Shown piece by piece: positions 3,401-45,199 of a stretch of 64,000 bases of DNA. The position numbers and the translations under genes are program-made. The DNA lies in NCBI GenBank assembly GCA_028641055.1, contig CM054062.1, positions 142,642,682-142,706,681 of the forward strand, in the 5' to 3' direction. The first letter of the stretch is position 1. Every line of letters starts with the position of its first letter. Source of the stretch: Alopecurus myosuroides. Taxonomy: Eukaryota > Streptophyta > Magnoliopsida > Poales > Poaceae. A model generated the notes under the pieces. The model was not told the DNA's origin. It ran no database searches and saw only the letters and a program-made list of their open reading frames with translations.

Positions 3401-5021
3401 ATCAATATCATCTGTAGAGTTGAGGAGAAGAAAACAATTGAGAAACATAAAGAAACTAAGTTGCGCTACTCGCGACCAAAAAGGTGAACTCGGTCACCTT
3501 CCTCGTCGTCTTCGGACCAGTCCCGAATGGACGCATCGACATGATGCTTACCCGGCTGGACGGCATGAGGGATGCAGAGGGTGTCCGCGGTGTCGTAGGA
3601 GACCTCGTCGTCCTCCTTTCGATATTCGTGCCAGTTGGCCTTGAAGCGCTCCTCGCTCTCAGCGAGCTGGCGAGCAATGCGCTGGAGATATAAGCAAGCA
3701 ACACGAATCAGTTGAGCAGCGTAAGGGATTCTACCCGGGACGGGATGCAAGCACAAAGCATAACAGAGTAAGCGTCCTACTCAACGAGGCGTGCAAACAC
3801 AAAGCACATGAAGCCTAACAGATAGTAGCAAGTGTTCTACTCGGCCTGTAGTGCAAACATAAAGCACATGAAGCCTAAAGAGATACGGCTAAGCGTCCTA
3901 CTCAACGAGGCGTGCAAGCACAAAGCACATGAAGCCTAACAGATAGTAGCAAGTGTTCTACTCGGCATGTAGTGCAAACATAAAGCACATGAAGCCTAAA
4001 CAGATACAGCTAAGTGTCCTACTCGGAACAGAGTGCGGATGCTAAGCACACCAAGCTAAGAAGGCTATCTACTCGGAATCAATATGCAGGAAACAGGAGG
4101 AGAAGTATTAACCTGCTTGATTGGCTTCATGCCGCTGTACGGCACAAAGCCGTACTGCCAGTGGTCGGTGAGGCCGGTGCTCATGATGGAGCGCGCCCAG
4201 ACGGCCACATCCGCATTGCTGAGCTTGAACATGGTCGTCCGGGTGCAATCTCTATTGCCGCCCATGTAGCACATGAGGTGTGCGCAGCGCTGCAGCGGGA
4301 GCACTCGCCTGGAAATCCAGCAGGCGATGGGGTCGTCGTTCTTGAGCCCCTTCTCCTTTAGCTGGGCGAGGCGCGTGTTGATCTTCTTGATGTCACCTTC
4401 TAGCGCCGGCTTGAACCCCCAATTCTGCCCCGTAGGAGTCGAATTGGTCCACCGGGGGAGATTGATCTGGTCCACCGGGGGCTCGCCTTCCTTGACAGAG
4501 ATGTTCTTCACGTAGAAGAAGGTTCTCTGCCATTTGCGCACAGAGTCAAGGCCCTTGACCCGCGGATGGCTGGTCCCGCTGCGCTGCACCATCATGGCGC
4601 TGCCGGTCTCGGTCATGCCGCGGCTGCTATCTGTGCTACCCGGCTTGGCCTTGCTTTGCTTCCTGAAGAAGAAGTAGCGCGCCCAGGTCATCGGCGTGGG
4701 GCGCACGCCCAGGAACGCCTCGCACACCACGGCGTGGTATGCGAGCATCACCATTGCATTCGGCGGCAGGTGATGCGGCTGGATTCCGAAATGGTTGAGG
4801 AAGGAGCGGAAGAAATCTGATACTGGTAGCCCGAATCCCCGCGCGAAGTGTGCGAGGAACACCACGTGCTCGTCCGCCTCCGGAGTAGGGACGAGCTCGC
4901 CATCGGGATGCCGACAGCGGACGCCGGGAGGAACTCGCCGGGTGTTCACCAGCCACCGGCACTCGTATGTCGTGACGTTGGATCCAGCCCACCCGGCGCG
5001 GGCGTCATCGTCGCGATCCAT
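441..5021 (-). pseudogene. Z antisense gene: spliced Transposase_28-like / coiled-coil protein, three stops
   Basis: I read this as one minus-strand gene of eight exons: 5021-4113, 3681-3498, 3411-3228, 3106-1765, 1570-1429, 1347-1264, 1188-829 and 721-441. Every intron starts GT and ends AG on the minus strand, and the phases stay in register across all seven junctions. The start is the first ATG after a TATAAATA box. Exon 1 encodes the domain of the putative gypsy-type transposon family (Transposase_28-like; FARGFGLP, HFGIQPHHLPPN motifs). Exons 2-4 are acidic then Lys/Ala/Pro-rich, and exons 5-7 form a long coiled coil. In-frame stops lie at 2902-2904, 1924-1926 and 839-841, so it is a pseudogene. 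The last exon may run into foreign sequence near 441-470. Function is unknown; homologues lie in A and B. Confidence 0.7.
3740..4060. repeat. Minisatellite, about 60-bp units in a 121-bp dimer
   Basis: The phrase GCGTCCTACTCAACGAGGCG recurs with a 121-bp period (3772 and 3893). Each period holds two related half-units carrying CACAAAGCACATGAAGCCTAA or CATAAAGCACATGAAGCCTAA forms. Degenerate half-units flank the array on both sides. The array lies inside the first intron (3682-4112) of the Z antisense gene. Tandem arrays between pol and 3' LTR are known for Tat/Ogre-type elements. Confidence 0.85.
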
Positions 5022-12088: not shown

Positions 12089-14576
12089 TCAAGCATCCGA
12101 GTCTTCTTCACTGCTGTCATCCTCGGGGGCTTCTGGAATCTCTTCTTCCGGATAGGTGATGGAGATATTCACCATAGAGGCAATCTTGGTGGCGTGACCC
12201 TTGATTTCTTCAAAAATGGTGGTCTGCTGGGGGTCCGGATATCCAAGAGGGATACCGGACGCCACGCGCCAAGATTTGGCACTGGGGTAATGCATACGCA
12301 TAAGGCCTAAAGCCATGCGTGCACCACCCCGTGCTGCGGAGCGCAAGGTGGATTCCTTGGATTCCGCCACCTCCAGGATAGCTTCCGGAAGTTTCTCAAC
12401 TTCCGAGAATTCCCCAGTTCTTGCGGGAAGGTACTTGTTGATCAGATGCATGCCTGCAGCTCTGATCGCGGTGAATACCTTCCCGAAAGCTCGGATTTTC
12501 TCAATCCGAGTAAGAACCGGGTTATCTACTGTTTTTTCAAGACAGACTAACCAAAGGGTTAGCGAAAAAGCAGAGAAAAAAAGTTAAGACGTGGAGAACC
12601 CGGGAAAAGTTGATAACTTACCGAGGATCTTGTCCATTTTGGAGCCTTCCTCCAGGCGCAGGGTCAAGGCGTTTTCCAAATCTTGGATAGTAGCCTTGTC
12701 CTTATCAGCTTGTTGGGAGGCCTTGGATTGAGCAATACCAAGAGCCAGATTGATGGCCTCCAGATCCTTCTGAGCCTCCATAAGTTCCTTATGAAGGTCC
12801 AAGTTCTCCCGGCGGAGATTCTCTGCATTGCCGGCATCTTCAGCTATTTTTTTGGCTTTCGCCAAAGCAGCTGGAAAGCAAGGAAAAAATTCTGGGTTAA
12901 GAAAACTTGGAAAAGTACTTGTAAAAAATTATGGACAAGGAACTTCAGAGAATTAAAAGTTACCTGTTGTTTCCTCCAGCCGTAGCTGAGACGATGCCAT
13001 CTATGTTTCCTTAACTTCAAGAATAGAGAGAAGGCTTCTAACCTCCTTATTATTGACAGTTAGCTTGTTGAAAACTTCCATATTTATGGTTTCGGTGGTT
13101 TGCTGAAACAAGGAAATGAACCAGAACGCTTAAGTTAGAAACAAGCATGACAAAGATGAAAGCATTAAGTTAAAAGCATACATTTTAACTTATTGCTTGG
13201 GGGCTAGAGATAATACCTGGCTCATTCGCTGTAAACCTGAAAAGTTTTCAGTGAACTCCTTTGCGTACTCAGCAAAAAGAGTCCCAACCGCGCTAAGGCC
13301 CTCGTTGATATTCTTGAATTCTTTATCAAAGGTGGGAATTTCCTCCTCAGTTATCCGAGAAGGACCTCCCACCTCAGGGACCGCCCTTTCCCTCGTGTCC
13401 GTTTCCGGCACAATGGGCTGGCTGGTCTGCTGGGTTTCGACGTCGGGGGACTCTTCTGTTGTAACTACCGGTGTATCCGGAGCAGTAGCAGGAGAAGGAT
13501 GTGGGCCTCTGCTGGCCACAGCTTTGTGCCTATTTTGCTTTTTCGGCTTCAGAGTAGAGGGAGGCATGCTAAAAAAGAGAAAAGCCGGAAAGTTAAAACT
13601 CCGAGAAAAAGGGAGAAATTCCAACAAAATAAAACAACCCAGATGTTTGAACCTGGAGGTGACGACGGGAACCCCGTCAAGATCAATGACTTCATGGGAA
13701 GTGGAAATCTTCTTGCGCTTACGTCCACCCGCAAAGGTGGCACGTAATACCTCTAGCTCGGCATCGGAAGCAAGTTCCGACTCAGGAAGTTCGGCAATCT
13801 GTTAAGGAGGCGAAAGCTGAGATAAAACCATGAAAACCAAGAAAACTAAAAGGATTTAAACTCAAAAGGCAAAGAATTGTACCTTGGGAGCCGGATTCGC
13901 GACCGTGTACATTGGCCAGCTTTCTTCATATTGGTCGCGGGATGCGACCAATTGATTTGCGCGTTTTCGCAAATCTTTTGCCGACCAAACCTTGTTGGTT
14001 GTCCGCATAGCATCGCCATCTCCCGAGTACTCGCAGAGAAGGCGAGCGCCGTGATTAGCCAAAGGCTGAATCCGCCTTTCTAGCCAGCAAAGGACTGTGT
14101 CCATGCCAGTTAGAGGCGGATCGGAAGCGACGAGCTGTGCGATGTGCCGCTTGATCCTGAGAAGATCCGGCGGCAGGGTCTGAACTGCTTCAGTTCCCAA
14201 GTTTTCTTGGGGAACAGCGGCGGTGTTCGAGAAAGGTGGAACCCCGGTGGTTTTCCCAGGGAAGGGAACATCGGGATGATAAAAGAAGGAACCCGTCCAG
14301 AATTTGACGGATTCCGATGTTTTAATCTTGGGGAACCAATCCTCCCTGAATCTGCCCAGGGTAAAGGATATGGTCCCACAAGTTGGGAGTGCGCCCTCCG
14401 AAGAGTTCCGCTTAACCCCAAAGCAATAAAGCCAGAAATCTAACCTAGGAGCTATACCTAGATATCCCTCGAAAAGGTCCTGAAATCCGGCTAGATAGAG
14501 GATGGAGTTGGGTGGCAGATTGTGGGGTTGGATGTTGTAGTGGGCTAAGATCTGGAGAAAAAAGGCAGATGGTGGA

Positions 14577-14581
14577 AGACC
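14577..14581. repeat. Target-site duplication of B, left copy
   Basis: AGACC precedes the TG of the 5' LTR of B and is repeated at 24534-24538. Removing B and one copy restores the reading frame of the A antisense gene, which confirms the insertion. Confidence 0.95.
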
Positions 14582-15038
14582 TGATGAGGGGATAGTAACC
14601 CGGTATACCAATTCAAAGGTGTGATTCGGCCCAAAACGGCGGCTGGACCGGATCCGGCTAAGGACAAAGAAACTTCTGGAAGGCCCAAAGCTTGTAATGT
14701 TTGTAACCCGGATTGTGGGTTACGGTAAGGAAAGTTAGAGTTTGTATGCAGAGTTCGAGTAGGGCTCAGGATGTGCCTTGTAGGGCAAGCCAAGGGGGGT
14801 ACGGGTGCTATATAAACCGACCCCTGGGCTCAGCCTGAGAGAGATTCAAGTCATAGTTGTAACACCTGTTATCGAGTATCCAGCATAATTCATATTGAGA
14901 TCCGGCGAGTTATTTTCCGGTTCTTAGATTGCTTTCCGCCATGTCTTCCTTCGAGCTAAACCCTCTCCCGAATACCTGTGTCGACTTGCCCCAAGATCAG
15001 TTACCCCCGGTAACATCTGCCGTGATTATCCCACGACA
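14582..15038 (+). repeat. 5' LTR of element B (457 bp)
   Basis: It starts TGATGAGGGGATAG and ends TTATCCCACGACA, so TG...CA. The core promoter is CTATATAAA at 14808-14816. An ATG at 14941, inside the transcribed part, opens a frame that continues through the primer-binding site. It is identical to 24077-24533. Confidence 0.95.
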
Positions 15039-18000
15039 GTTGGCGCCCACCGTGGGGCCTGCGTCCAAAGGTGTTTGCATCACGGGAGAAGCTCGGAAAA
15101 GCATGGAGAACCTCGTCGTCGGTGAGATCTACGACGACCACGAAGGAAAGAAGATGGTGGACGATTCCGGCTGGGGGCCTGAGTCGGATCGCCTCGAATC
15201 TGGATCGGTCGTGACGATCGGCCGAATCAACGTCTTCATCGGCATGGTATGTACCTCTGGTTCGATTCCTGACAATTTTTCTGATCCTGTATCAGGGGAG
15301 GCTGCGTACGCCCAACCCGATAGAGAAGAGTCAGTCGGAACAACATACCAGGCAGAGGAGCCTATTACACGTTGGGAACAGCCGGAGAAGCCGGCATGGA
15401 CTCCGCGCGACCCAAGCAATGGAAAGGATGACACTGCATCGATTAAGGACTTGCTGGAAGATCGGTACAGGGAGGAAAACGGCGAGGAAGAACAGCACGA
15501 GTCTACCCCGGGTATCATGCGCCGGGTTGCAGTTTATGCGGCTCCCGCGACCAACCTCAGTCAAGAAAATACAGCCGCGGCGCCAGTCGGGGCGGCCCAG
15601 GCAGTGGCCCAGCAGCAAGGAACGGTTAACCCGGTCCTGGTCCAGGTCGATGGAGAGTCGGCGTCAGTCACCAGTCGCCCAACAGACGAGGAGCAACACG
15701 CAAATATGTTCGGATTCCAAGCAAACCGGACACCGGGGGCGGGCCCCCCGAATCCGCGCCACCCGGCTCTGTTCGATAATAATTTGATCTTGGACCCCAC
15801 AGTCCTGGCCACAGTTATTACCCCAGAAAACGCGGCAGAGCGCGTAAGAGACCTGGACGTGGCTCGTCGTGCATTGGAGCAGTAAAGAAGGCAAGTAGAA
15901 GCAGAAAGGCAGGGGATGGCCGCGCGGCAGCGCGAATTGGATGATCGAGAGACCCGGCTCCGGGAGGAAACGACAAGGATGCACCAAAGGCACCGAACTA
16001 TGCTGCCGGCAACAGGAGGGGTTATTAACCCGACTGCCCTGGTGTTCACGCCTCAAGATCAGCCGATTCCACCGGTGAACCAAGGGACCATACCGCGACC
16101 GTCAACAGGAGCACAGCCGGTAAACGCGCCAGCCGGGTTACCTTTGCCACAGACGGGGGTGACAGCCGGCAATACCATGCCACCACCACCATCACGATTC
16201 CATACACCAGCAGGCCATTACAACAATCCCATGGACAACGTGTACGCAGCAACGCTCGCATTAAACCAGATTCCTGTAGGAGATTCGCCTCTTGCAGAAG
16301 GAACCCGACGAGCGATCGATCTGCTGCACACCGCGGTAGCACAGCAAGCCAATTATCCGGATCATAGAAGCGGAATGCATGGGACGCCGTACGTCAGTCA
16401 GCAACAGGGCAATGTCCAAGCAAGCGCGGCACGACGAAGGGAAGAGCAACAGCAAATGCCGCCTCCACCGCGTATCCAGACAGTACCAGTAGCATCAGCA
16501 GCGCAGGCGGTGGTGGACAGTTCCAGGGCCAGAAGAGCCGGAGCCGGGTCTGCAGGGCACGAGTTGCCGGTGGCGCCACGCCTCGTGGCACCCCCAGCCG
16601 GGTCACGTGTTTCCCGAGTAAGACCAGCCCCAACCACCCTGGCGGGACCCAGGTGCCTCTCGGACGATATCAGAGCAGAACCTTACCCGGAGAAGTTCAA
16701 AGAACCGGGGAAAGTAGTAAATTATGAGCCAACAATGGATCCAGAAACGTGGCTGAGCAGCTACGAGATGGCAATGTCAATTCGCAACGCATCCGAGAAT
16801 CTCCAAGCCAAATTCATGTACTTAATGATCTCAGAGGGAGCAGCAAAGTTATGGTTCACCAATTTACCGGAAAAGTCGATCAAATCGTGGGAGGAGCTAA
16901 AGACCGCATTTATCAAGCACTTTCATGGGACATGCAGAAAGTTATTTACTATTGATGATTTAGAAAGATGCGTTCAGAAGAAAGGAGAGTCAGCACGCAG
17001 CTGGGTACGCCGGGTTATGGAGATACTCCACTCGTCTACGGATATCCAGCCTAAGGACGCGCTACAAGCTATGGCAAAAACATGTAAGTATGTTCCTTTA
17101 GTGCAAAACCTAACTCGCATGAAATCTAGTAGGAATGCAGCGGAGGTTACGATGGGAGAGTTAATGGATGCGTGCAACAAACACGCTGCAACGGATACCA
17201 CAGAGGAGGAAGTTGATGACAAGAAAGCAAAAGCAAACACAAGTAGCAGTGGGAAAACCGGCAATGGATCGGCGCCAAACAATAATGGAAGTAGCCAAAA
17301 CAAGCGCCCGTTTGAAGGGAATTCCGAGTTTGTAGCCAACACGGAGGCCGGGTCTTCAAGACCTAGATCCGAAGGAAATTTTAATACTGGAAATCACAAT
17401 GGGGGGCACTACCAAGGACCTCCAAGACCAAGCAACAGTTGGGACATATTTAGGATGGCATGCCCGAAGCATAGCAGGAACGGCAAGCCGGCCAATCATT
17501 CATTGGAGCAATGTGCCGACTTACAAAGGTGGAAGAACGAGGAAGTGAACAGAGCCATGCGAGGTGCAGGCCGAGGAGGAGGCCCGGGCCTAGGTGGAAA
17601 TTTGGGCAACGGACCGCCCCCAGCCGGCAACCCGCCAGCTGGAAATCAAGGTGACAATCAAGGGGGAGCGGGAGGTTTTCAAGCTAACCCCAAACAGCTG
17701 GGTCAATATCATGTGCACACTACGGGAGGCTCTAACAAGGATAAGAAGATACTGAAACAAGCAGTTAATTCGGTCTCTTCCGCTGTTCCAAGATATTTGA
17801 GGTGGTCAGAACAAGAGGTAACATGGAGCAGGAAGGATCACCCGGACAGAGTTGATCACCCGGGAGTCTTAGCTTTGGTAGTGGCACCACAGGTCAACGG
17901 CTACGAGCTGAAAAAAGTCTTGATGGATGGAGGAAGTAGTATCAATATCCTGTACTGGGAAACTTTTCTGCGTATGGGCTTAAAGGAATCGCAGCTGCAA

Positions 18001-18636
18001 AAGAGTACAACAGTTTTTCACGGGATAGTGCCGGGTCATTCGGCATGCCCCGAAGGAAAGGTGGCACTGGAAGTAGCTTTTGGAGAGTCAAAGGACAATT
18101 ACCGAGTCGAGTGGCTTACCTTTGAGGTAGTAAAGTTGCGCAGTCCTTATCATGCATTGTTTGGAAGGCCGGCTTATGCCAAGTTCATGGCAAGACCGTG
18201 TTATGTGTACCTACAGCTGAAAATCCCGGGTCCTAAGAAGACCATTACAATACACGGAAATCGAGATATAGCAGCTGAATGTGATGAGGGAGATGCGGCA
18301 ATGGCCGAGCAAGCCTGCAGGAAGGAAGAGCTCAAACATTACCGTTCTCAGGTGGACCTAGAAGAGAGGACAACGTCAAAAAAGCCAACTCCTGAGGGGG
18401 ACAAAGCAAAAGTTAGGGCAGAACAAAACCCTAAGATGGTAGGCTTCATCAGGAGCGATCCTTTCAAAACTCCTAGCAGGGAGGAAGAAGACGTACCGCC
18501 ATCCGCAGCTGGTCAAGCTTCAAGGACGATATACCCGGATTGGCTAGCAAATCCGGTACTCATTATGAAAGGGCCTAGCAAATGGAGAATGTGCATCGGC
18601 CGTACCAACGCAAGGCCGATTCTCGAGAATAACTAA
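14941..18636 (+). pseudogene. gag: gag-protease of element B with reverse transcriptase deleted
   Basis: One frame runs from an ATG inside the 5' LTR (14941) to 18636 with a single TAA at 15883-15885. The part after an internal ATG at 15916 is open for 906 codons. Its N-terminal third is Pro/Gln/Ala-rich. The gag core (DPETWLSSYEMAMSIRNAS, LWFTNLPEKSIKSWEELKT, HFHGTCRKLFTIDDLERC) lies near residues 275-410. A Gly/Asn-rich linker follows, and the protease has LMDGGSSINILYW near residue 673. Then come YHALFGRPAYAKFMA and a remnant of reverse transcriptase, WLANPVLIMKGPSKWRMCI, after which the frame runs out. RT, RNase H and integrase are absent. Gag and protease could be supplied by this copy only if the internal ATG at 15916 or stop readthrough is used. 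Confidence 0.85.
15041..15057 (+). other. Primer-binding site of element B
   Basis: TGGCGCCCACCGTGGGG starts two bases after the LTR. It begins with TGG, the complement of a tRNA CCA end, as expected for minus-strand priming. The identity of the tRNA was not worked out. Confidence 0.8.
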
Positions 18637-19681
18637 AGCAGTGTAATGGACGGCAGGTTTCATACGCACTCTTTTCCTACCCAGGGTACCTAAGGGGACT
18701 GGAAGGTTTTTAATGAGGCGGCCTGCTGATTCAAAAAAGAAATTTTTATCGATAAAAGAAGATGGTCTCGAGTCTTATCATGGTCTTTGCTTCAGTTACA
18801 AGTAAGTAATGCTTGTTATTATCAATACGTCAATATCATCGAAATACGTCACGTGCATATAGGTCTTCGGGGATTGGTGTGCTTAAATAAGTAATCACAA
18901 ACCCGAAGACCCGGCCTTGATGCCTATGAGTTATGAGGGCTGATTACTCGAAAAAACGGGTACGGCTGCAATCTTATAACCGGACAAAGGAGCCAAATTT
19001 CTTGATTATTCTTACTTAAGCTCGATGTGACTCGCGCTAAAGTGGCATGATCTGTTCACTTACGATTACAATCAAACTATGCAGCCCAATGGGACTTGCT
19101 TGACCCTGTTTTTCGTATAGATGTAACAGCATGGTATCCACGCGAAAGCCGGCTTACAGTACAAGATAATCAAAAGGGTCATCTAAACCACAAGTCCATG
19201 CAGAGTATAAGGCTCAAATAGCCGGAAACTCAACAAGTATTAAGCATGACTTCAGTATTTATGTGAATAGCTATTGGTCTTCAGCTTGGTAAAGAGCAGT
19301 TTGTCATCTGAGAAAGGCCACGCCCCCTTAGCTCGTACTTTGGGTCATGGGGACTGGGGACTTCGAGACAGAAACAAACTGCTTAACTACTAAAGCTCGT
19401 AAACCTTAGTTTCCGAGTCTTGGGGACTTAAAGAAAAGTCCGTCTATCAAAACCTACGATACTCGGTTAGCCGAGTCTCAAAAGGGAATCAAAAGCAAGA
19501 GTTCAAAGTATCGAGAATAAGCTTACATGTAACACAAGGATCGAGATTATCAAAAGCCGGGAGAGGCAAAGAGTTATCATAAATTAACAAGCGCAAAGTC
19601 ATAATATCAGTATCAATGTTGCACAGGCGCACCGCTAAAAATCATATCAGTCTCGAGAAACGCAAAGCACTAGGTATCATC
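18637..19681. other. Non-coding spacer of B between gag-protease and antisense gene
   Basis: No convincing frame occurs on either strand. It contains CCCAGGGTACCTAAGGGGACTGG shortly after the stop, and several copies of a TGGGGACTTGGG-like purine motif (near 19347-19360 and 19421-19430). It is the 3' flank of both the sense frame and the antisense gene. Confidence 0.55.
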
Positions 19682-22600
19682 CTACTCAGCATCCTGGGAG
19701 TGGTCCCCCGGGTCTTCGTCTTGGACTTGCTCCTTGGCTTTGCCAGCAGTTTTACCCGGACTCTTCACGTCAGGACGGACAGGAGGAGGAACGGCTGGTG
19801 TTGAGGTAGACGGCTTTACGCCTAGTTCGGTTTCTCTCTTCGCAGCCTCTTCTTTCCTCCTGGCCAGGCCAGTCGACCACTTTTCCAGCATATCAAAAGG
19901 AGGGGGTGCCTCCACCAGAATAACCTTGCCCTCAGAGTCATATGAGCTCATAATTGTGTTTAGATCCATTTTATCTGCCAAAGTTGTGGCCGAGTGACGT
20001 ACCGAAGATTGTATAGCTTTGAAGTCCTGGGGTTTAAACTTAGACCCGTCAGCCTTGAATTCTGGGAACCCGGATACTACCTTGGCCGGGTCAAGCTTAG
20101 GAAAATAAGCCTTAGCCAGCGTCAAAGCCCGGGTCATCCCAATCCGGCAAGATGAACGCTTCAATATTTCAATCCATCCAGGCGCTGTGGACAAGGCCTG
20201 CATGAGATTTTCTTCGCCCGGGTATACCTCCGAAGGCCACTTTATAGCATCCAGCAAAAGTTTCGTGCCGGCAAAAAATGTCCGGAGCACAGTCTTCAGA
20301 GTTTTAGCCTGAGTAACGGTATTCTCCTCCGGAACAGCAAGGTTAGCACCTGCAATCGAAACACACAAAAGCATATCAGTAATCTTGATTATTACAACGG
20401 CAAGATAGAGATACGCAAGTTAATTGCAAATAACAAACTTACTTAGCAAGATACGGTAAGTGTCCGTAATTTGAGTCGACAGGTTATTCAGCGAGGATTG
20501 GGCAGCATTGTATTTGTTCTTGTATTTGGAGACATCTTTTTTCAAAGTCTTTATCTCCGCTTCAAGGGTTTCCCTACGTTTTGTTTCCGCAAGCAAGAGC
20601 TGCTCAGTTTTAAGTAATGTTTCATCCGACTGAGTTATCTCCGCCTGCAAAGAACGAGTGCAACTGTAAGCCGGATATCACGAGAATATTTCCTTCTGAG
20701 AAAATAATTACAGAAAATTATTATGCGAAGTACCGAGAATAATTACAGAAAATTATGCTCGGAACTTGGGGACTGGATGTATAGTAAGAAGTATCAAGTA
20801 AGATTACCTGATGTGCTGCAGCCATACGCTCTAGGATATTTCCTTCTGAAGCTTTCATGGCGAGAAGAGCGCTCATCAGCTGGTTAAAATCAGCGTTATC
20901 CGAGTTAGATGACTCGGGTACCTGGAAAGAGGGAAAAGGAGCTTTTCTTGTAACAGGAGGTGGCACCCGGGTCATCCGAATGTCGGAGTCTGGTCCCCCT
21001 CCCGCGCTCGAAGCTGCTCCCTTCTCCTTCTCGCCTGCGTGTGAAGCGATTGGATACCCGGTATCATGCCTAGCCAGCTCCGGTGGCGACGCTTGCTCGT
21101 CGCCAGTTGCGGTGAATGCGCCATCAGCCGGCTCATTCTCGACTTGGACCTCAGCCTCCGTGCCCTCTTCATCGCTAATAACAACCGTGGCTCTGTAGAA
21201 GGTATAAGGGTGCAGTTAATCTTTGGTTATGAAAAAGGTGATAAAAGTTCGGTATAACGTCAAGGAAAAGAGTTTACCCGGTGTTCACCGGGAAGTCCGA
21301 AGGGAAGTCGCCGCTAGACCCGGAAGAGACTGAAAAATGGCAAGCAAGGTTTGGGATTACGTCGCAAAGGAATGTCCGGAAAGAGTTTCTATGTACGATA
21401 AATACCAGAGCGTCGAGCCGGGGGCGACGAAGTGTCCGGGTTAAGGGCCTCGTCGCCCGGATGGTTCCGGGTTACTCGGCGCCTAGTCGCGGGCGGCTCC
21501 TTCATTTATGATCAAAAGGGATGAAGATGAGGTTAACCCCGGAGTGACGTTATGAGAGCAAAAATTAAAGGGCAAGGAAATGAAATGAAAACCTGGAGGG
21601 CGATTCTTTGGGATTTCCTTTTTGATCCGGCTTTGGTGGCCGGCTCCGGCTCGTCCTCTTCGCTGGTGGACTCCACGCTGCCGTATGTTTCTTCTTCTTC
21701 CTCGTCTTGATCCTCTCGTTCTGAAAGATATCAAAGTTATAGCATAAGGAAAAAGAGGAGGCAGGATATAATGCGTGCGAGGGGATTGAGTATGCACCTT
21801 CATCCGAGTTAGCGGCATCGTCTTCCTCCTCCGCGTCTTCGGAACTAGGAGGAGTGTTGACCGTCCAAAAGTCATTATCGGCCTGAGGTGAAAATGCCAG
21901 GGCAATGGTTAATATTGAGTCAAGAAAAGCGGATAAAGGTAAGCTTGTTAAAATCCAAAATCAAGAGGTAGAAAGCTTACCGCGGGGGCGGGGTTCTCGA
22001 GTGTAAAAGGTTCTAACCCGGCTATGTTCCGGATTACCTCGAGCTTCTCTGTTAAAAAACCCTTGATCGTTTTGTTCATGTCATTAGGGGCGAAGGTGCT
22101 GGTAGAGTATCGGATCGGGTCCGTGGTTTGACCCGAATATTCACACATCAGCTTCTCACGAATGGAGTTTGGCTGGATGCGGAAGTTGACCCAGGTCTTC
22201 ACCAGGTTTAGGCCGACGAGGCCTCGAGCCGATAAGATAGAGATCTTAGCCAGCAAAGGCAAGATAGCCTCCCTGTCCGAGTCAGGGGCGAAGGCATTGA
22301 AAGTCTCGGAAATGTCAAGCTGACCCTCCGAGTAACCCGGCAACTTCTTTTCGCCGGGAGGGGAGGTATCCTGGCAGTAGAAGTACGAGAGCTGCCAGTG
22401 CTTCACATGAGAATTGAGAGTGATAGGAGGCATCAAGGAGTTCTTGCGGCGCTGGATAGAAACCCCGCCGCAAGTAAGAGGTGCGCCGTCGCCGCTTTCG
22501 CGGCACGGCTTGCACTGAAAGAGTTCAACGAAGAGAGCCAAACTTGGCGGAGTGCACAAGTAAGACTCGGAAAGAACGATAAAGTGGGAGATGTTTAGAA

Positions 22601-22910
22601 CGGAGTTTGGGCCTATGTCGAAAATACGGAGGTTGTAGTGATCTAGGACGTCACGAAAGAAAGGGTGACCCGGAGGCCTGAAGCCCCGGGTCACATGTTC
22701 GACGAAACATATTACCTCGTCCGTTGCTGGAGAAGGCCGGGTTTCGTTGCCCGGTACTCTCCAACGGATAGATTCCTGCGGAGGAAGAATTCCAAGCTCG
22801 ACCAACTCCTCCAGTTTAGCCTTGGTAACTGAGGACTTCCCCCAATTGGCTGATATGGAGTTCGTGGATTTAGCCTTAGCCGGCTGTTTCCCTTGCCTCT
22901 TGGGTGCCAT
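19682..22910 (-). CDS. B antisense gene: intact spliced Transposase_28-like / coiled-coil protein
   Basis: Coding exons on the minus strand are 22910-21981, 21882-21798, 21720-21593, 21329-21289, 21192-20808, 20644-20443 and 20349-19682. All introns are GT-AG, lengths add to 2439 bases (812 codons plus stop) and no junction breaks the frame. A 5' UTR exon ends at 23420 and joins an acceptor before 22919. The start, CCCATGGCA, is the first ATG of the spliced RNA. Exon 2 starts basic (MAPKRQGKQPAKAK) and carries the Transposase_28-like domain (VTRGFRPPGHPFF, CEYSGQTTDPIRY). Acidic exons 3-4 follow, then a low-complexity exon, a coiled coil (20443-20644) and a C-terminal exon with RIGMTRALTLAKAYFP...VVSGFP. 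Localisation may be nuclear (basic N-terminus; inferred). Function is unknown. It is the only fully open copy of the three in the window. Confidence 0.75.
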
Positions 22911-23419
22911 GGGATTGACCTGGTGAAACATCAAAGGGAAGGACGTAAGAAACGAAAACTTGGAAGTTAGCAGATGAGCAATTACCGACTATTTAAATAC
23001 GATCCGGGTATTGCCTTGCTGGGTCAAGTACGATTTGTCCGGGTATTGTATATCATTACAAAACCTGTAGGGTTTTCCATAAGGTAAGTGTTTGGGGAAG
23101 TTAGAAGGATACCCATATGCCTACCATCAGCAAGTGAGCCGGAGAAGTGAGATTTTCGGAGGGATAAGAGCAAAGGCGGAAATTTTGGACGGCCCGAGCC
23201 CAGATGGGGGACCCTATTTCTAGATTTGTGACCAAGTTAATGCGTACTGACGTTAGGGGAGTAATATAAGCAATGTATCCTATCTAGGGGAATGGTTATG
23301 GTAAGCGCTAGTGAGTTAAATCGGCAGGGCCCGAGAAATTGCGGACAGCTTGATTCAGATCTAATCTAAGGAGAAGCTGAGAAATTGCAAGGATGGGCTG
23401 GAGGATAGGAGGAACTTAC

Positions 23420-23650
23420 TGAGGGAGGTTGAAGTAGGGACTTGCGGAGACAGATGGCGCAAGATTGATGTCCTTTCGCGATTGTTGGCCGGCAAATCGG
23501 GGGCTTGGCGGCGGATTTGGGAGCTGGAGTGAGTCGCGTGGTGGCGGAGCGCAAGCGACGGCGGATGGGCTTCGGCGATGTGCGTAGGGCTTCCGTGGCG
23601 GCACTCCGCGAACTCGAGCTTGAGAAGAAGAGGAGTGGGGGAAATGAGCC
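23420..23650 (-). other. 5' UTR exon of the B antisense gene
   Basis: On the minus strand this GC-rich exon follows a TATA box at 23679-23686 and ends at a consensus donor, CTCCCTCA then GTAAGT (23414-23419). It contains no ATG. The acceptor TTTCACCAG (22920-22928) leads into GTCAATCCCATGG. The 5' end is estimated at about 30 bases from the TATA box. Confidence 0.55.
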
Positions 23651-23678
23651 GTTAGGGTTGAGTTTGCTCCTTGGGGTC

Positions 23679-23686
23679 TATTTATA
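23679..23686 (-). promoter_or_regulatory. TATA box of B antisense gene
   Basis: The minus strand reads ATTATAAATAGACC. It has the same TATAAATA octamer as in Z and A and is followed by an ATG-free exon. A second weaker AT-rich site (TATTTAAATAG near 22990-23002) lies inside the 5' UTR intron and could be an alternative promoter. Confidence 0.65.
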
Positions 23687-23689
23687 ATA

Positions 23690-24076
23690 GCCCGGGTGGA
23701 AAAGCTTATCCTAACGGGCGAAACCCGGGAGGTGCGGAGTAATAGTTGGCTATTTTGAAATTTGAAAAACACGCTTTATGCGTAGTCAGATATGATCCAG
23801 AGAGAAAGGAAGGGGAAATCTCCTTCCTGATATCATCGATAATTATCAAGAAAGATGTGAAATTATGGAGTTTTCTATTAAGACTCAAATCTGGAAGATT
23901 AAGGGAGAACCTTTAATGGAGAGCCGGGTCATTACCTGACCCCCTTGGTACCAATCTCAGCCATTCGTCAACGTATTGTGTCTTGACCTTCATGTGTTTG
24001 TGTCTAACATTTCTGTAGGGAATAGCCAGCGCTTCGAAGAGTAAATCTTGGAAGCCCCAGCTATTCTGGGGACTAC
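23690..24076. other. Non-coding 3' end of B internal region with polypurine tract
   Basis: I see no coding signal. It ends CTATTCTGGGGACTAC before the LTR, the plus-strand primer tract, which resembles those of Z (CGGGGACTAA) and A (CGGGGCTAC). Upstream promoter elements for the antisense gene would be here. Confidence 0.6.
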
Positions 24077-24533
24077 TGATGAGGGGATAGTAACCCGGTA
24101 TACCAATTCAAAGGTGTGATTCGGCCCAAAACGGCGGCTGGACCGGATCCGGCTAAGGACAAAGAAACTTCTGGAAGGCCCAAAGCTTGTAATGTTTGTA
24201 ACCCGGATTGTGGGTTACGGTAAGGAAAGTTAGAGTTTGTATGCAGAGTTCGAGTAGGGCTCAGGATGTGCCTTGTAGGGCAAGCCAAGGGGGGTACGGG
24301 TGCTATATAAACCGACCCCTGGGCTCAGCCTGAGAGAGATTCAAGTCATAGTTGTAACACCTGTTATCGAGTATCCAGCATAATTCATATTGAGATCCGG
24401 CGAGTTATTTTCCGGTTCTTAGATTGCTTTCCGCCATGTCTTCCTTCGAGCTAAACCCTCTCCCGAATACCTGTGTCGACTTGCCCCAAGATCAGTTACC
24501 CCCGGTAACATCTGCCGTGATTATCCCACGACA
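24077..24533 (+). repeat. 3' LTR of element B (457 bp)
   Basis: It is identical, base for base in my reading, to 14582-15038, including the TATA box (24303-24311) and the ATG (24436). It is followed by the AGACC duplication. Confidence 0.95.
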
Positions 24534-24538
24534 AGACC
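24534..24538. repeat. Target-site duplication of B, right copy
   Basis: AGACC directly follows the CA end of the 3' LTR of B and matches the left copy at 14577-14581 exactly. Five bases is the usual duplication size for LTR elements. Confidence 0.95.
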
Positions 24539-25148
24539 CATACCTCTCAGTATATGGGAGGTGAGGAGGACGCGTTCCTCGTCCTTTGGCGCGGGCTCGG
24601 ATTCGTCCTCCGGGATACGCCATTTGCCTTTCAGCACAAGCCCCTCCTTCTCCATTGTCGGAAGGAGGGATGGCGGAATACTGCTGGCACTCCAGTTGCC
24701 GGCAGTTTCCGCCTCGTCATCTACTCCGGCAGCGGCGGACGCTGCTGCCTCCGCAGCCGCAAGCTTGTCTCCGACGGGCGTAAGTTTCTCTTCCGCCGTC
24801 TCGGGCGCGAACGGCGGAGGAGGCGCGGAAGAAGACCCCGCAAGATCTGCGGCGACGGGACGGATTTCCTCGCCCGCCGTACTGCCAGTGGCCTTCGCCA
24901 GCTCGTCGACGGAGGCGTGCACCGGTGAATCCAACTGTGGATCCATCGTGTCGATGATCTCTTCGATGTCCTTTGCGACGGTGCGGGCTGGGGAAGAGCT
25001 TGGGTATGCCATCGATGGGCGGCGCGCGGTTGCTCCGGTGAGGTCTCGGGTGCGTTCGTGCACTCGGGAGGTGCTCTGCGAGAACTTGGGCGCTGGGAAT
25101 GGTGCTGCGAAGTGAGAGCGGAAGGTTTCCACGGAGGACGGAGGCGGC

Positions 25149-26583: not shown

Positions 26584-28439
26584 TGATACCTGTAATCCCT
26601 CTGATGGTGTGCACACATACGCTCGGTCAACCCGTCAGCGCTCCGTCGTCCAGGACTCGGCACCGACGAAGAGATGTGGTCTTCTGGCGTAGCTAACTGG
26701 TAGCTTTAATCAACTGTGATTAGAGATATTATGAATCTGTAAGTTCTCAACACATGCGGGATAAGAGCTAATTGGATCTAGGTGTAATCGGGAGATTATA
26801 ACTCAAAACCCGATTAGAAGAGGCTCTAGTTCAATTAGAGGATCTCTAATGAGAAACTCTAATTGGATCATATAATTCTACTAGAGAGAGAGAGGCTTGA
26901 GAGCCAATTGTGTGTTTTTCTATCAGCCTTGGGGTGATTTATATAGTGGGAGGGAGGAGAGACTTTCCATAGATAGGGAGGAGTCCTAGTTGCACTAAGG
27001 GGTGGTGGCCGTACCAGGCCTCCTACCCCAACTCGGATTGGGAGGTGGAGTCCTCCTCCACCTCGTCTCTCCCTTCCTTGTTCTTTTTCCCTCTATTTCT
27101 ATTATCTATTTATCTCCAATAAAACACATACAAAAAACTAGGACAATGAGTACCAACTTGTAGAGCCCACCTAGCATCCTCCTAAAATAGGGTTCGGCCA
27201 TGAGGGGGACGCTTGCCCCCTCCCAACACTTCTTCCTTATTTGGAAAGTCCCTGAAACTCCTCTGGAACCACTTGACCCTATAGATAAAATGATTGATAT
27301 TATCCAACAATGTTAGAAACATATTTATAACACCCCGGGACATCTCATGTCCTCCGTTACCTCTCATATAAATTATGCCCAACACTGGCATAATTTCTCT
27401 GTTATAGTAACTTCCCTGAAACCACTCCAATCGACATAGGACTTGTTTCTATGATATCGTAACGACATCGAACATTCATAAACCAATAATAACATAATAT
27501 TTTTCTCAATAAAAGGTCGGCATGGCTTAAGCTGGTGACCTGTAAAGGCTCGATAACACACATACATGTTCAGGAACTTACCAAACAATGACCAATAACG
27601 GGATCGTGGACGTCCATGCTGGCTCCTGTGTGTTCCCGAAGAACAAGGGAACCTTATAAGATAATCATTGAATTTATTCCCTTAATAACTTCACGAAACC
27701 AATGATATCACGAGGTGAGACTATGTGATCTGTTCTGATCAAACTCTTTGATCATAACACATAAAACTCATTTACCGATATCGTTCTTTTTTCTCATCCA
27801 TATCCCCGATGACCCTATGATAAATAAGACTGTGTCCGGCTAGACGATACGTCATCGGTGATACTGAGAAGGCCAGTGAATGTATCTCTATATCGTATAG
27901 AGGAGTGAAGTACTAGTCTTGAATGATCTCAGTGAATACATCTCTATATCGTTTAGAGGAGTGAAGTACTAGATATCACAGTTGTAATCCCCAGTTACAA
28001 CAAGACGGTTGATGATATCCAAAGTATAATTGTGAATTGTGAGGTAACTAGATATTCTCATAGTATAGGAATTATAGTCAATGTTAACTTTATATGTATT
28101 TGCAAAAATACATTATGATTGTTTAGTCTGTTTTAGCAACAAGATACACTTGGGTCGTTCAGTACTATTGTTACCCTAACAGCAAACACTTATGTTTTGC
28201 TAGACTTTCATCCAAGTTCATGATCAAGAAAATTTGATCATCTCAAAAACCATTAGCTAAGCTTAGAGACAAGATTAGGAAATCTGTTTGTTTATGTCTT
28301 CACACTCATACAAAGATTTTATTTTAAAACTCACTTTTCAAGGGCTATAGCGGTTCTAGTATGATGACATAAACCTAATTCTGAACTTGGAGATAGAATA
28401 ATAACTGAATATTATTGTATCTAGGCCATACCTCCAATA
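26584..28439 (-). repeat. 3' LTR of F, its distal about 220 bases cut off by C
   Basis: This matches 33435-35206 in order: AATCCCTCTGATGGTGTGC, CAACCCGTCAGCGCTCC, TCAACTGTGATTAGAG and CTTCTTCCTTATTTGGAAA. It ends on the plus strand at CCTCCAATA, where the expected CCTCCAACA has one change. The adjoining GTCACTCACTTGCGCTAG is a degenerate polypurine tract on the minus strand. Confidence 0.75.
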
Positions 28440-33217: not shown

Positions 33218-35206
33218 TGCTGGTCTACGCTGCATAATTTATAAATATTGCCCTATATAGTTCTCCAAGATCACTATGCAGATAACGAGGCATGTTAATA
33301 CATGCGCGGATCAGGATCACGACTCACCGGGTAGAGGATTCGATGTAGTCGTAGAAGAGTTCTGAACAATCGTAGATCCTCACAACTAGGCCTAGTTGCA
33401 AGAATGTCGCTAAGTATTCCCTTGTCAAGGATCACACGTGTAATCCCTCTTATGGTGTGCATGCGTACGCTCGTGTCAACCCGTCAGCGCTCCGATGTAC
33501 AAGACTCGGCTCCGAGAAGAGAGACAGCCTTCTGACATTGATAATAAGTAGCTCTAATCAACTGTGATTAGAGTTATTATGAATCTGGAAATTCTCAACA
33601 CATGAGAGAGAAGAGCTAATTACAGCTAGGTCTAATCGGGAGAGTATAACTCAAAACCCGATTAGAAGAAGCTTTAATTCAATCCGAGGATCTCTACTTA
33701 TATCCTCTAATTCTACTAGAGAGAGAGAGAGAGAGAGGATTGAGAGCCAATTGTGTGTTTTTCTATGAGCCTTAGGGTGCTTTATATAGTGGGAGGAAGG
33801 AGAGACTTCCATAGGGATGGAGGAGTCCTAGTTGCACTAGGAGGTGGTGGCCGCACCAGGCCTCCTAGCCCAACTCGGATTGGAAGGTGGAGTCCTCCTC
33901 CACCTTCTCTCTCCCTTCCTTTTTTCCTTTCCCTCTTTTTATTTTCTCTTTTTCTCTCCAATAAAATCCAGAAAAATACAGAGACGATGAGTTCCAAGTT
34001 GTGAACCCAGTGGGTCCCACCTGGCATCCCCTAAAATAGGGTTCAACCATGAGGGGGAAATCTTCCCCCTCCCGGCACTTCTTCCTTATTTGGAAACACA
34101 TTTATAACACCCCGGAACATCTCATGTCCTCTGTTACCTCTCATATAAATTCTGCCTAACATTGGCATAATTTCTCTCTTATAGTAACTTCCCCGAAACC
34201 ACTCCAATTGACACTGGACTTGTTTCTGTGATATCGTAACAGCATCAGACATTCGTAAAACCAATAACAACATATTATTTCTCTCGGTAAAGGGTTGGGA
34301 CGGCTTAAGCGTGTGATCCGTATAGGCTCGATAACACACGGACATGTTCGGTAACTTACCTAACAATAACCAACAACGGGACCGTGGATGTCCATGATGC
34401 CACCTGCGTGTTCCCGAAGAACGAGGGTACCTTATAAGTTACTCATTGCACTTATTCTCTCAACTTCACGATACCAATGATATCACGAGGTGAGACTATG
34501 TGATCTGGTGTGATCAAACTCTTTGACCAGAACACATAAAACTCGTTTACCAATATCGTTCTCTTTTCTCATCCATATCCCCAATGACCTTGTAATAAAT
34601 CACATTGTGTCTGGCCAGATGATAAGTCATCAGTGATAGTGAGAGGGCCCAGAGAATGTATCTCTATATCGTCTATAGGAGTTAAGTACTAGTCTTGAAC
34701 GATCTCAATTCCATTGCACTTTCTAGGCCATACCCAGATATCACCGTTATAATCCCCAGTTACGGCAAGACGGTTGATTATATCCAAATATAACTTTCGA
34801 TCATGCGGTCACTATTTATTCTTATAGTATAGGAATTATGTTCCCTGCCAACTTCACATGTATTTGATAAAATACATCATGATTATTTAGTCTCTTTTAG
34901 CAACAACATACACTTGGGTCGGTTCAGTACTATTATTACTCTAACTATAAACTCTTATGTTTTGCTAGAGTTTCATCCAAGTCCATGAACATGAAAATAT
35001 GATCATCTTATAAACCATAAACTAATCTCAGAGACAAGATTAGGAACTCTTGTTTGTTTATATCTTCACACCCACACAAAGATTTTCCTTTGAAAACTCA
35101 CTTTTAAAGTGATATTGTTGTTGTAGCATGATGACATAAACTTAATTCTGAACTTGGAGATAGAATAATAACTGAATATTATTGTCTCTAGGGCATACCT
35201 CCAACA
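33218..35206 (-). repeat. 5' LTR of F (1989 bp)
   Basis: On the minus strand it starts TGTTGGAGGTATGCCCTAGA and ends TAGACCAGCA. It contains an (AG)10 run at 33718-33737, against (AG)6 in the other LTR (26883-26894). It is the complete partner of 26584-28439. Confidence 0.8.
33718..33737. repeat. (AG)10 microsatellite in F LTR
   Basis: A perfect dinucleotide run. The homologous site in the other LTR has only six units, so it has changed length since insertion. Confidence 0.95.
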
Positions 35207-40909: not shown

Positions 40910-40988
40910 CTTAGGGATCTAGGAAGACATCATCCGAGGCACAAAAACATTGAGGACACGCTCCCACTAAATTGAGGGAGGCAGGTGA

Positions 40989-42159
40989 TACGTCTCCAAC
41001 GTATCTATAATTTCTGATATTCCATGATGATATTATGCCAATTTCTACATGTTTTCTCCCTTCTTCATGTCATTTTTATTGATTTTCCAAACTAACCTAT
41101 TGACAAGATGCCACAGAGCCAGTTCCCTATTTTCTGCTGTTTTTGGTTTCAGAAAAGTTGTTCTAGAAATATTCTCGGAATTGGAAAATTCGAAGCCCGG
41201 AAGTCTTAGAATTCCCGAAGGTTCCACGGAGTCCCGAAGCCTCAGGGGGCCCACACCATAGGTTGGCGCCCCCTTGGCCGCCCCGAGGGGTGGTGTGGGC
41301 CCCCCAGGGATCCACCGCGTTTGCCATTTCGCCTGTTTAATCCTCTCCAAAGGAAAACCCTAAGCACCTGATCAAAAATGCCTGAAAAGTTCCGCAGCCG
41401 CTGTCATCGGCAACCCTAGATCAGGGGGTTCTGAAGCTATCTCCCGGCACCCTGCCGGAGAGGAGATCATCATCGGAGGACTCTTCATCACCATGCTTGC
41501 CTCCGGAGTGATGCGTGAGTAGTTCATAGCAGTAGCTGGATGGTTGTCTTCTCCTCCTATGCCTCAATGTTTAGATCTCGTGAGCTGCCTAACATGATCG
41601 AGATTGTTCTTATGTAATTCTATGTGTTGTGTTTGCTGGGATCCGATTAATATTGAACTTATGCCAAGTTGATTATAGTCTTTATTGCATAAGTTATTTG
41701 TGATCTTGCATGCTTTCCGTTGCTAATGGTTGTTCTGGCCAAGTTATTTCTAGTGACTCCAAGAGGGAGTATTTATGCTCGATAGTTGGGTTCATGCCTC
41801 CTTTTCGCCTGTGATCGAGTGAGAGAAACGTGACGGGGGAGGATGTGCTGTTGCCCCTAGGGAGATAACAGCAGTGTGAGTGCCCACGTGCACAATCATT
41901 GCTTACATTACACACATTTCTTAATGTGATTATCTGTTGCTTGCAACTTAATACCTAAGGGGGCTCGGATGATGACCTGAGGGTGGATTATTAGTCATAG
42001 ATGCAGTTGGATTATGGTCTATGTATATTGTTGTAATGCACACACTAAATATAATAGTAGTCATCATGTCATGAATGTGCACTACGGTGCAACCTCTATT
42101 TGTCAATTGCCTAGGTGTGATTTCTTCACCCATCATGCTCTCTTTTATGGAGAGACACC
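40989..42159 (+). repeat. 5' LTR of D, first part
   Basis: It starts TGATACGTCTCCAACGTATC and runs to the ACACC at 42155-42159, where E begins. It aligns with 62846-64000. The middle is GC-rich (CCCGAAGGTTCC, GGCGCCCCC), the likely promoter/leader part. Confidence 0.9.
42155..42159. repeat. Target-site duplication of E, left copy
   Basis: ACACC precedes the 5' LTR of E and is repeated at 57427-57431. Element C shows the uninterrupted site (GGAGAGACACCACTAGTGA near 26164-26182), which confirms the insertion point. Confidence 0.95.
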
Positions 42160-43391
42160 TGTCACACCCCAAATTTGGGACACTTGTAGCACATGAGGGA
42201 GACCATTTTTGTGAGCCAACAAAACTTTTTAATGCCCTTGTATAATCCAACATTATGTAATGAACCATGGTTATCTATGAAAATGCAAGCAATCTTTGAC
42301 TCAAAAATCATTCACCTTGTTTCCTGATATTTTCCATTTATTTCTGTGATGTTTTCCACCTGGTGATTCCAAAGTTGTTCATCAAAATTCTTCTGGAAAT
42401 ATTGTTTTAAAATTATTAATAATATTTGGTTTGTTTAGAATCAAGAAAACATTTTGGCAAAAGAGTTATCCTATGTTTTCCTTAAGGTTTTCTATAGAAA
42501 CTCTTTTCTGACAAATAAGCCAATTAGGTGTTTTTCAGTCATGTATCTATATGATAGAGAATCACATTTTGTGTTTTCTTTTCATGGATGTGATCTCTAA
42601 TATATGGACTACAAAATGGTGAACTTGGTATGAAAATTTGATTTACAGAAACAATCATTTGCTTGATGTTTTTGTGTTAAGAAATTAAGGCAGAATTAGT
42701 GTTTTCTGGAAAACAGAGAAAAACATAAACTAGCTATTGTTCCACCTTGTTTTCATTGGTCATTTGAAATTCAGATTGGTTTTCTTTTGCTGAATCTGAA
42801 AGTATAAATGTTGCTTAACACAACTACACTTGGAAAACAAATTTTGAAATTGTTTTGATCCATGAAAACAAGTGCAACTTATGACTAATCCACTCTGTTC
42901 CCCCAACACTTCTGCAGAAAACAAGTGCAACTGAATTTCTGCAACTGAATTTGGTCATTTGAAAACAAGTGCAACTGAATTTCTGCAGAAAACAGTAAAT
43001 GAAACGATTTTCAAATACTTATAACTTTAGTTTGGATGATACATTTGCTGCACCACTTGGAACTTCTAGAAGCCTAGTCAGCACACTACATTTCTATCCC
43101 TTAGCAACCAAGTCAAGTTGACCACAGAGGAGGTGAGCTCGTGGTCTTCAGAGGTGAAAACGGGAGGGGGCGGCATGGGCAAGTCTGACAGAGTGTGCAC
43201 TGTCGCATGCCGCTGTGGCCACCTCGCGATTTTTCTCCTCTCACTCGATGTTGCGACGTTGACTGACCCTAGCTAGCACCCCTGGACGCACCCAAAGGAC
43301 AAGGGCCATGGCATGGGCACGCCAGGGCGCGCACGAGTGCGTCGCACTGCCACCCGAGGGCACCCGTGCGTGCACACGACCGCTCCCGCGC

Positions 43392-43399
43392 CTATAAAG
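43392..43399 (+). promoter_or_regulatory. TATA box in the E 5' LTR
   Basis: CTATAAAG sits in a GC-rich setting after a CpG-rich block. The homologous site in the 3' LTR is at 53954. If used, U3 is about 1.25 kb and the transcribed LTR part about 3.4 kb, an unusually long leader. Confidence 0.55.
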
Positions 43400-45199
43400 C
43401 CACAGGAGAGCCACGACCTCGCCACCACACCCGCACACCACCTCTCACACACCTCGTATCCACCCACGAACACCCCGAGCTATCTGCGACCCTAGATCGC
43501 CGGAGAATGTCGCGAGCCACCACGGACTGCCAAGGTGGGTTGCGCACGCCTGAGGGGACCCCACCCCTTCCTTTCGCTCTCAAACCACTCCCTACCCTCC
43601 GTGGAGCAAGCCTGACCCGCCCTCGTGCTTCCTCGTTTGCAGGAACGCCGGTGACAACGTCGGAGCTGCCGCGGGACACCTGCATCGCGCCAGCAACAGA
43701 CACCACCCCGCGTCCTGATTCCAACGCCCCTGCACGGCCCTGAGCACCTGCGACTGCCCCAACCCCTTGCCACCAGCCTACACGCGCCCTAGGTGAGCAA
43801 TCGCTTCCAACTCTCCGTCGGCCGCGCTCGGTTTGGTTCGAGAGAGAGAAAAGAGAGAGGAGAGGAGGACGATGTCCGTGCGCCGCGAAGCGGTACGCGC
43901 GTGCAGCATGCCGTGGAAGCGGGCTGGGCCGCTGAGCCCTAGCGGGCCGCGCGCCCGTGTGATGAACAGCCCGCGAACGTTAATTCTTTTTCTTTTTTAA
44001 AACAAACTGAATCTGACACTTTACTTTAATCATGTTAAAAATAGTAAAGCCCAAAAATAAAATCAACCAAAATTACCTGAGGTAGATATACAAAATCTTG
44101 AACAAATGCAACTTATAGGTCTGTGTTTGAACCCTTTTTGAACAAATGAAAAATGATGAACTACACACTGTTTGCTAAGGCAAAATGCAATAACATTTTG
44201 TTGGAATGTTAAAATTGTGCAAACTAAAATTCTTTGAGTAGCTCTTGACTAGATCTATCAGTAGGGCTTGACCTCACATCAAGGTGAGCTACCATATGGA
44301 AATGTTATCCACTTTGGTAAATGTCCAGTAGCATATTCTAGGATTTTTAGAAGTTATTTGAAATCACTTTTTGATGTGAATCGAACTGGATCTGTTAGAT
44401 TATGTGTAGATCTATGGTCTCCTATCTTGGTGCGATTTTTAGAGCTCTAGATTAATATTGGTGACAGATCTAAGGTTTTGCACTTTTCTGTTAGAAATAA
44501 TATGTCTAGAATTAATTCTAGAATAATTGCTTGCTAGTGTTACTTTGTTTTCTAGCATGTTTAGATGTTGTGCTTAGTGTTATAATGTTGTTTTATCATA
44601 GATCTAGCATGTTAGAAAGTTTGTGCATGTTTAGGATTTGTATGGAACTAGTATGAGCATAGTGTATTCTCTAGTTTTTTTTTATTAAATCTTGTGATGC
44701 AAATGCTTAGCTAGATTTTTATCCAAGTTGTTAGGAGTATTTTTAGGTGAGTCCAGTACCATTTTAGTACTGGTTAGTACTTGTTTTCACCTCTGTTAGC
44801 GTGTGTTTTATTTTCCTTAGAGATGCATGTGTAGCTTTAGTACTTATTTTCATAGTGTTGTTTTCCACTAGAATCACTAGTTGTATTTTTACTAGGTGAA
44901 TGTTTTGTTTTCCACAAGTTGGACCAGAGGCTTAGTACCTCTTAAATGACATGGAAAAACCTAGTGGAACACCCACTGGTTCGTTCTTATTTTGTTGAGA
45001 AATGATACCTCTCAACCATAGTAGTAGTGGTAATAATATTTGAATATTGTTGTTTTGGGGGTATGCTTGTGTAGTATTGTTTTGTGAACTTGTGTGCTAT
45101 TTTGTTTGTGCATTGCTTTCTGTATGGTGTAGTTGAGAGTCTTTGTTTTCTTAGTTTGGTTCTGACTGGGTGTCCTTATTTTTATTTTACGAATGATAG

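Follow-up and report, generated by a model that had tools for sequence, protein, structure and literature searches.

The stretch analyzed here, a window of 64,000 nucleotides from the grass Alopecurus myosuroides (GenBank assembly GCA_028641055.1, contig CM054062.1, forward-strand positions 142,642,682 to 142,706,681; coordinates below count from its first base), contains a long terminal repeat (LTR) retrotransposon, element B, which carries what appears to be a gene of several exons on the strand opposite to its gag gene. Element B extends from LTR to LTR over positions 14582-24533. Its 5' LTR (14582-15038, plus strand) and 3' LTR (24077-24533, plus strand) are identical over 457 base pairs (bp), and the 5-bp target-site duplication AGACC is found on the left (14577-14581) and on the right (24534-24538). 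Since the LTRs are identical and AGACC stands on each side, the insertion is recent (no age in years is claimed), which bears out the description of B as a very young LTR retrotransposon in the original prediction. A sense open reading frame (ORF) of 906 residues (15916-18636, plus strand) contains a gag domain (PF03732, E 5.6e-10). Its residues 617-832 show a 46% match to a second element in the window, element A, and we take them to be the protease; the end of the ORF is presumably the very start of a Tat-type reverse transcriptase (RT). Pfam gave no match for protease or RT in this ORF, and the protease stretch was unmatched in element A too. In B, the two long sense ORFs and the six longest of the twelve plus-strand stop-to-stop segments listed for 18640-24076 yielded no RT, RNase H or integrase domain. 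Pol may have been lost before or after the insertion of B.

The antisense gene lies between the gag ORF and the 3' LTR, on the minus strand. It had been proposed that seven coding exons of 930+85+128+41+385+202+668 = 2439 nucleotides join into one frame, and this map could be reproduced with GT-AG introns throughout, 812 codons and no internal stop (22910-21981, 21882-21798, 21720-21593, 21329-21289, 21192-20808, 20644-20443 and 20349-19682). The exon lengths allow four placements, two of them free of stops; in the alternative stop-free placement exon 6 lies at 20629-20428 and has a GC donor. Exon 1 (21981-22910) encodes the Transposase_28-like domain that had been recognized in the product, now identified as PF04195 at residues 67-134 with an E value of 1.1e-20. 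Exon 2 (21798-21882), the acidic exon 3 (21593-21720), exon 5 as first proposed (20808-21192) and the coiled-coil-like exon 6 as first proposed (20443-20644) were recovered both by the reproduced join and by a splice-aware profile search, and the acidic stretch is followed by a basic cluster. The last coding exon (19682-20349) encodes a conserved C-terminal domain and the stop. In a mechanical list of ORFs the gene appears as two ORFs longer than 600 nucleotides, 21948-22934 and 19682-20374, so it would enter a survey based on uninterrupted ORFs as two separate antisense ORFs. Upstream, a TATA box is predicted at 23681-23686 (minus strand), position 23686 being the end coordinate of the original prediction. 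A 5' untranslated exon (23420-23655, minus strand, its start at 23655 being assumed) would be followed by a 500-nucleotide intron (23419-22920) and by the remaining leader ahead of the ATG (22911-22919, minus strand). As for this untranslated exon and its junction, which had also been claimed, the intron fits and its donor scores low. The 236-nucleotide leader exon is free of ATG, as are 19% of shuffled leaders.

When protein sequences were searched with the spliced product, two of 7994 scored candidates came back as relatives. A profile made of two sequences returned 56 among 7992, nearly all of them annotated proteins of Triticum, Aegilops and Lolium, with many near-duplicates in the set. 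The protein P0001 (Triticum aestivum VPH35_058006, 811 residues) aligns with the product of B nearly end to end with about a third of the residues identical. At the first coding junction the sequence NPAPA/ADNDFW of B is met by NPAPAADDKFW in P0001, and near the last junction the two align around SANL. P0001 and its like are known here as annotated proteins, and they are colinear with the spliced product. Of 57 proteins fetched, 24 give a single alignment with B that begins ahead of residue 300 and ends past residue 600, thus across the first and last coding junctions, and P0045 runs unbroken for 845 residues from a contig of 4258 nucleotides. Long and apparently spliced members of the family are already present in grass protein annotation, some of them labelled as isoforms. 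Two wheat-group proteins labelled isoform X4 (P0051 and P0053) have in-frame insertions in and after the acidic region which, by eye, resemble retained introns; they hint at alternative splicing in the family.

When a profile built without B was run against six-frame ORFs of the window, it found the exon 1 ORF (E 6.9e-94) and the last-exon ORF of B (E 1.8e-23) as well as pieces of two other copies, with a best E value of 0.41 for reversed ORFs as a control. A custom splice-aware profile search returned the seven proposed exons at an intron penalty of 8 with both of the profiles used, and its score of 412 compares with 16-24 in 10 shuffled versions of the region. With the splice-site scores removed, a different and longer chain was obtained. 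NCBIfam gave nothing for the pieces of the window and two weak matches, far under the cut-off, for P0001; Rfam gave no match, and searches of viral contigs and of bacterial and archaeal genomes turned up no related DNA. Searches of solved structures gave weak matches alone (best E 0.014), mostly to the coiled-coil-like part.

It was argued in the original prediction that seven junctions would hardly fit by accident. This argument did not survive a shuffling test and was dropped: when the region separating exon 1 from the last exon was shuffled with its dinucleotides preserved and any GT-AG intron was allowed, an open path was present in all 60 shuffles, and in 50 of the 60 it reached at least 2439 nucleotides. 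With splice-site score thresholds the real region had 7780 paths and only one of the 60 shuffles had any, the thresholds having been picked after the sites were seen so as to admit every site of both exon models, and the weights, here as in the splice-aware searches, being approximate plant frequencies. Good splice sites are thus plentiful in this region, yet frame alone cannot fix the exon map.

The middle of the first map is probably in error. Within the proposed intron 3, a block of 94 nucleotides (21499-21406) has a guanine-plus-cytosine (GC) content of 71%, against 38% and 41% in its flanks. If this block is taken as a probable extra exon, absent from the first map (21406-21499, minus strand, with a weak acceptor and possibly starting at 21448), and if exon 4 is lengthened from 41 nucleotides (21289-21329) to 52 by use of the next donor, in another frame (21278-21329, minus strand), the reading frame is kept and the gene has about eight coding exons and 847 codons. 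The score rose from 369.8 to 384.5 bits with a profile of six homologs, picked from the 57 for seeming to hold every middle segment, and from 410.2 to 412.8 bits with one of twelve homologs, picked from the 57 for length and spread. In pairwise comparisons eight exons scored higher in 12 of 13, P0009 being fitted worse. The GC-rich block and the higher profile scores favor an additional exon and a lengthened exon 4, and the proposed exon 4 of only 41 bases is probably not the correct form. The differences between one grass gene model and another involve whole segments, whose edges fall at B positions 310, 411, 558 and 624; the eight-exon junctions 310, 412, 558 and 625 coincide with or adjoin them. 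Seven of 27 such edges lie at most three residues from a junction of B (reached by 0.3% of shuffled exon orders) and five of the seven junctions are met by an edge (1.6% of shuffled orders), the edges being hand-copied and mutually dependent and the underlying alignment including the eight-exon product.

It is also conceivable, if less likely, that the seven-exon model, with its 41-nucleotide exon 4 and a product of 812 residues, is the true or main form and that the 94-nucleotide block is intronic. The splice-aware search returned the seven exons exactly at penalties 5-8 with the six-homolog profile and 7-8 with the twelve-homolog profile, being the answer from penalty 5 and from penalty 7 upward, respectively. 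At lower penalties the six-homolog profile (2-4) gave the extra exon with its start at 21448, and the twelve-homolog profile (1-6) gave the extra exon together with the lengthened exon 4 and a split exon 5, some runs splitting it at 20966-20880. No run with either profile returned the exact eight-exon model, and for this reason our preference for it is a modest one. The weak acceptor and the better fit of P0009 likewise speak for seven exons, and the new middle segment was no better than its shuffles in five of the six homologs tried; in P0045 it did beat them (2 of 500 reached its score). Against these points, seven exons would leave a block of 71% GC inside an intron, would go with the lower score in both profiles and in 12 of 13 pairwise comparisons, and would pass over the edge of a variable segment that the grass models show at B position 411, adjoining the new junction at 412. 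We hold that the extra exon is probably real.

Element B does not stand alone, since it was found to be inserted within the antisense Transposase_28 gene of element A, a location which, like the lack of a detectable pol in B, adds to what had been described before. The two halves of exon 1 of this severed gene (13883-14581 and 24534-24817) match neighboring stretches of the profile. The start of the gene lies at 24539-24817 (minus strand, E 3.9e-09) and the rest of exon 1, detected by the profile built without B and by the splice-aware search, lies at 13883-14575 (minus strand), with its donor after NPAPK. At penalty 8 this donor follows the same NPAP motif as that of B, and at penalty 14 no intron was called there. 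A probable last exon was found at 12092-12528 (minus strand, E 0.002); its acceptor, an AG of the same phase picked by eye and of poor score, precedes DN, where B has AN. Of the intron positions, the first is common to A and B and well conserved, and the last is perhaps common to both, if weakly conserved. Small middle exons were also proposed for A and were rejected as not convincing. A third Transposase_28 copy, copy C, has its exon 1 at 4113-5003 (minus strand, by profile matches).

Because the DNA searched gave no close copies, identity by codon position among A, B and C was used instead of the ratio of nonsynonymous to synonymous substitutions (dN/dS). Exon 1 of A shares 32% identity with that of B. 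Global protein alignments of this exon among the three copies reach scores of 137-174, whereas codon-shuffled controls stay at or below -40. Agreement at third positions was 0.28, 0.35 and 0.31, against 0.29, 0.33 and 0.30 in the shuffles. Alignment alone raises agreement at positions 1 and 2, as the codon-shuffled controls demonstrate, and the claim is based on the alignment scores together with the randomized third positions. High scores with third positions at or near the shuffled level indicate that the exon 1 protein was kept after silent sites had been randomized.

Element A also informs the class of B. Its domains, spread over several separate frames, come in the order gag, RT (RVT_1), RNase H, RVT_3 and integrase (rve), and we take RVT_3 to stand for a second RNase H between RNase H and integrase. 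A second RNase H in that place is a mark of the Retand/Tat lineage (PMC6317226), and the domain order of A is the one given for Ogre and Retand. Antisense Transposase_28 (TRP28) ORFs are a known mark of Retand elements, which accords with the earlier statement that extra antisense ORFs are established in Tat-type elements, and B has such an ORF ahead of its 3' LTR as in that lineage. From the end of its coding region to its 3' LTR, B has a stretch of 5440 bp (18637-24076), within the range of 2,933-6,566 bp given in a 2025 survey (PMC11963269). The earlier designation of B as Tat-type is supported only by way of the related element A and of the gag of B, since the RT, RNase H and integrase domains whose phylogeny defines the lineage were not found in the ORFs of B scanned.

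Just downstream of exon 1 of copy C, on the minus strand, lies a tandem array (3769-4026, units of about 60 and 121 bp) of a kind known in Retand elements (PMC11963269); a second exon proposed for copy C was rejected as it sits in a tandem repeat. Other repeats in the window include a direct repeat of 4.7 kb (42143-46821 and 52755-57427, 93% identity), a second pair at 40986-42110 and 62846-64000 (90% identity), and a direct pair at 26588-28437 and 33436-35204 (82-84% identity), which may be the two LTRs of a further element of greater age.

Taken together, it is likely that B is a recently inserted, pol-lacking relative of the Tat/Retand-type Ty3/gypsy retrotransposons, and that it carries a complete split antisense gene of the element's own accessory family, rather than a captured host gene, which is spliced and encodes a nuclear regulator. 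Its transcription would probably be driven by a TATA promoter belonging to the gene and located just inside the 3' LTR, and the leader exon and about eight coding exons would probably be spliced into an mRNA for a protein of some 850 residues, with a Transposase_28 region, an acidic stretch with a basic cluster, a coiled-coil-like part and a conserved C-terminal domain. In the full-length genomic RNA the antisense GT-AG introns would read CT-AC; they should stay unremoved and persist through each transposition. By the rules of splicing, the introns may thus have been kept because the antisense orientation hides them from the splicing of genomic RNA. The spliced antisense mRNA, lacking LTR ends, would not be copied. 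The protein most likely is nuclear, binds nucleic acid and regulates element B, a view drawn from relatives, namely the nuclear GENE23 of Grande and TRP28, for which DNA binding is predicted; the basic cluster is compatible with such a role. The anatomy, the homology, the two intron positions (one well and one weakly conserved), the negative result for pol domains and the youth of the insertion are observed; transcription, splicing in vivo, nuclear action and regulation are what we infer.

Several results weigh against this reading. The gene model was read from DNA, and nuclear action is argued from literature about relatives. The middle exons had no significant independent homology when the profile built without B was run on the six-frame ORFs of the window, and at penalty 14 the splice-aware search merged exons 2 and 3 and lost exon 4. 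With residues 1-320 of the eight-exon product as query, none of 2684 candidates matched at E 0.001, which suggests that close relatives of B lie outside that database or share too few words with the query. The last exon of A was not clearly above its control, and neither profile nor splice-aware searches found a later exon of copy C. AlphaFold models were poor, with a mean predicted local distance difference test score (pLDDT) of 44.7 for exon 1 and 56.4 for the last exon. The claim of a multi-exon antisense gene in a very young element accordingly stands in outline, by virtue of the colinear proteins, the common intron positions and the conservation of the protein, and its exact middle exons are probably wrong.

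It was proposed for such antisense transcripts that they might act as RNA, also beside a role of the protein (PMC7264820), and the transcript of B could pair with the genomic RNA and feed or tune silencing, its protein being incidental. The conservation of the exon 1 protein with randomized third positions and the presence of colinear proteins across grasses make this improbable. Less credible again is the view that the ORFs form a functionless string, decayed or accidental; it may draw on the open GT-AG chains so common in shuffles, and it has to contend with the homology, the common intron position and the richness in splice sites. Host genes typically have introns and a promoter of their own, so that capture of a host gene by this single element might also be considered; diverged relatives of the gene are, however, present in element A and copy C, and in the 2025 survey TRP28 is reported from 97% of clusters, with no similarity found outside transposable elements (PMC11963269), which leaves capture the most improbable of the three. 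The element's own accessory gene, acting through its protein, remains the reading we favor.

The gene is a member of a known family. In the survey of 2025, antisense TRP28 ORFs, counted from 600 bp upward, were present in 97% of recently active Retand clusters, and they share with that of B the PF04195 domain, the antisense orientation, the location between coding region and 3' LTR and the young age of the elements (PMC11963269). They are described as uninterrupted ORFs of at least 600 bp, whereas in B the corresponding ORF is the first of several coding exons, and the gene also encodes a conserved C-terminal domain. In the text of that survey, with 12 of 14 places shown, the word "intron" is absent and "splic" occurs twice, seen in the reference list alone. 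A multi-exon TRP28 gene was not found described in the literature searched, the coverage of which is incomplete, and no priority is claimed. Like B, the maize element Grande has an antisense accessory gene, gene23, with its own promoter (in B a TATA box is predicted), lying downstream of pol in Grande; unlike the gene of B, known from its sequence, gene23 has a nuclear protein and transcription established by experiment (PMC7264820). With its two LTRs flanking a gag ORF, no pol among the ORFs scanned and its young age, B also resembles the non-autonomous TR-GAG elements (PMC9784723), of which multiple copies and mobilization in trans are further marks, and differs from them in its large antisense gene. 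Spliced antisense transcription of a retroelement, as predicted for B, is found in human T-cell leukemia virus type 1 (HTLV-1), where it starts in the 3' LTR and not at an internal TATA box (PMC1459196); this is an analogy only.

A 2020 review called for the examination of possible antisense and spliced transcripts (PMC7264820). A young element without pol, in which gag and the antisense gene are both open, may tell us what functions such an element needs in cis. A survey of 2019, which admitted uninterrupted ORFs from 250 codons upward, had sorted extra ORFs of Ty3/gypsy elements into 314 groups. Should the gene be split, studies of single ORFs have dealt with fragments of it, and these 314 groups would need recounting. 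We propose tentatively, at somewhat less than an even chance, that the assorted antisense ORFs which Retand-type elements are reported to carry downstream of pol (TRP28, 'Smc', 'TolA', 'DNA polymerase III gamma/tau' and unnamed ones) are largely exons of one ancient, intron-rich gene, carried in the lineage since the antisense orientation hides its introns, and that ORF surveys have split one fast-evolving protein. This wider view, in which many antisense ORFs would be exons of a single gene, can be tested on existing genomes.

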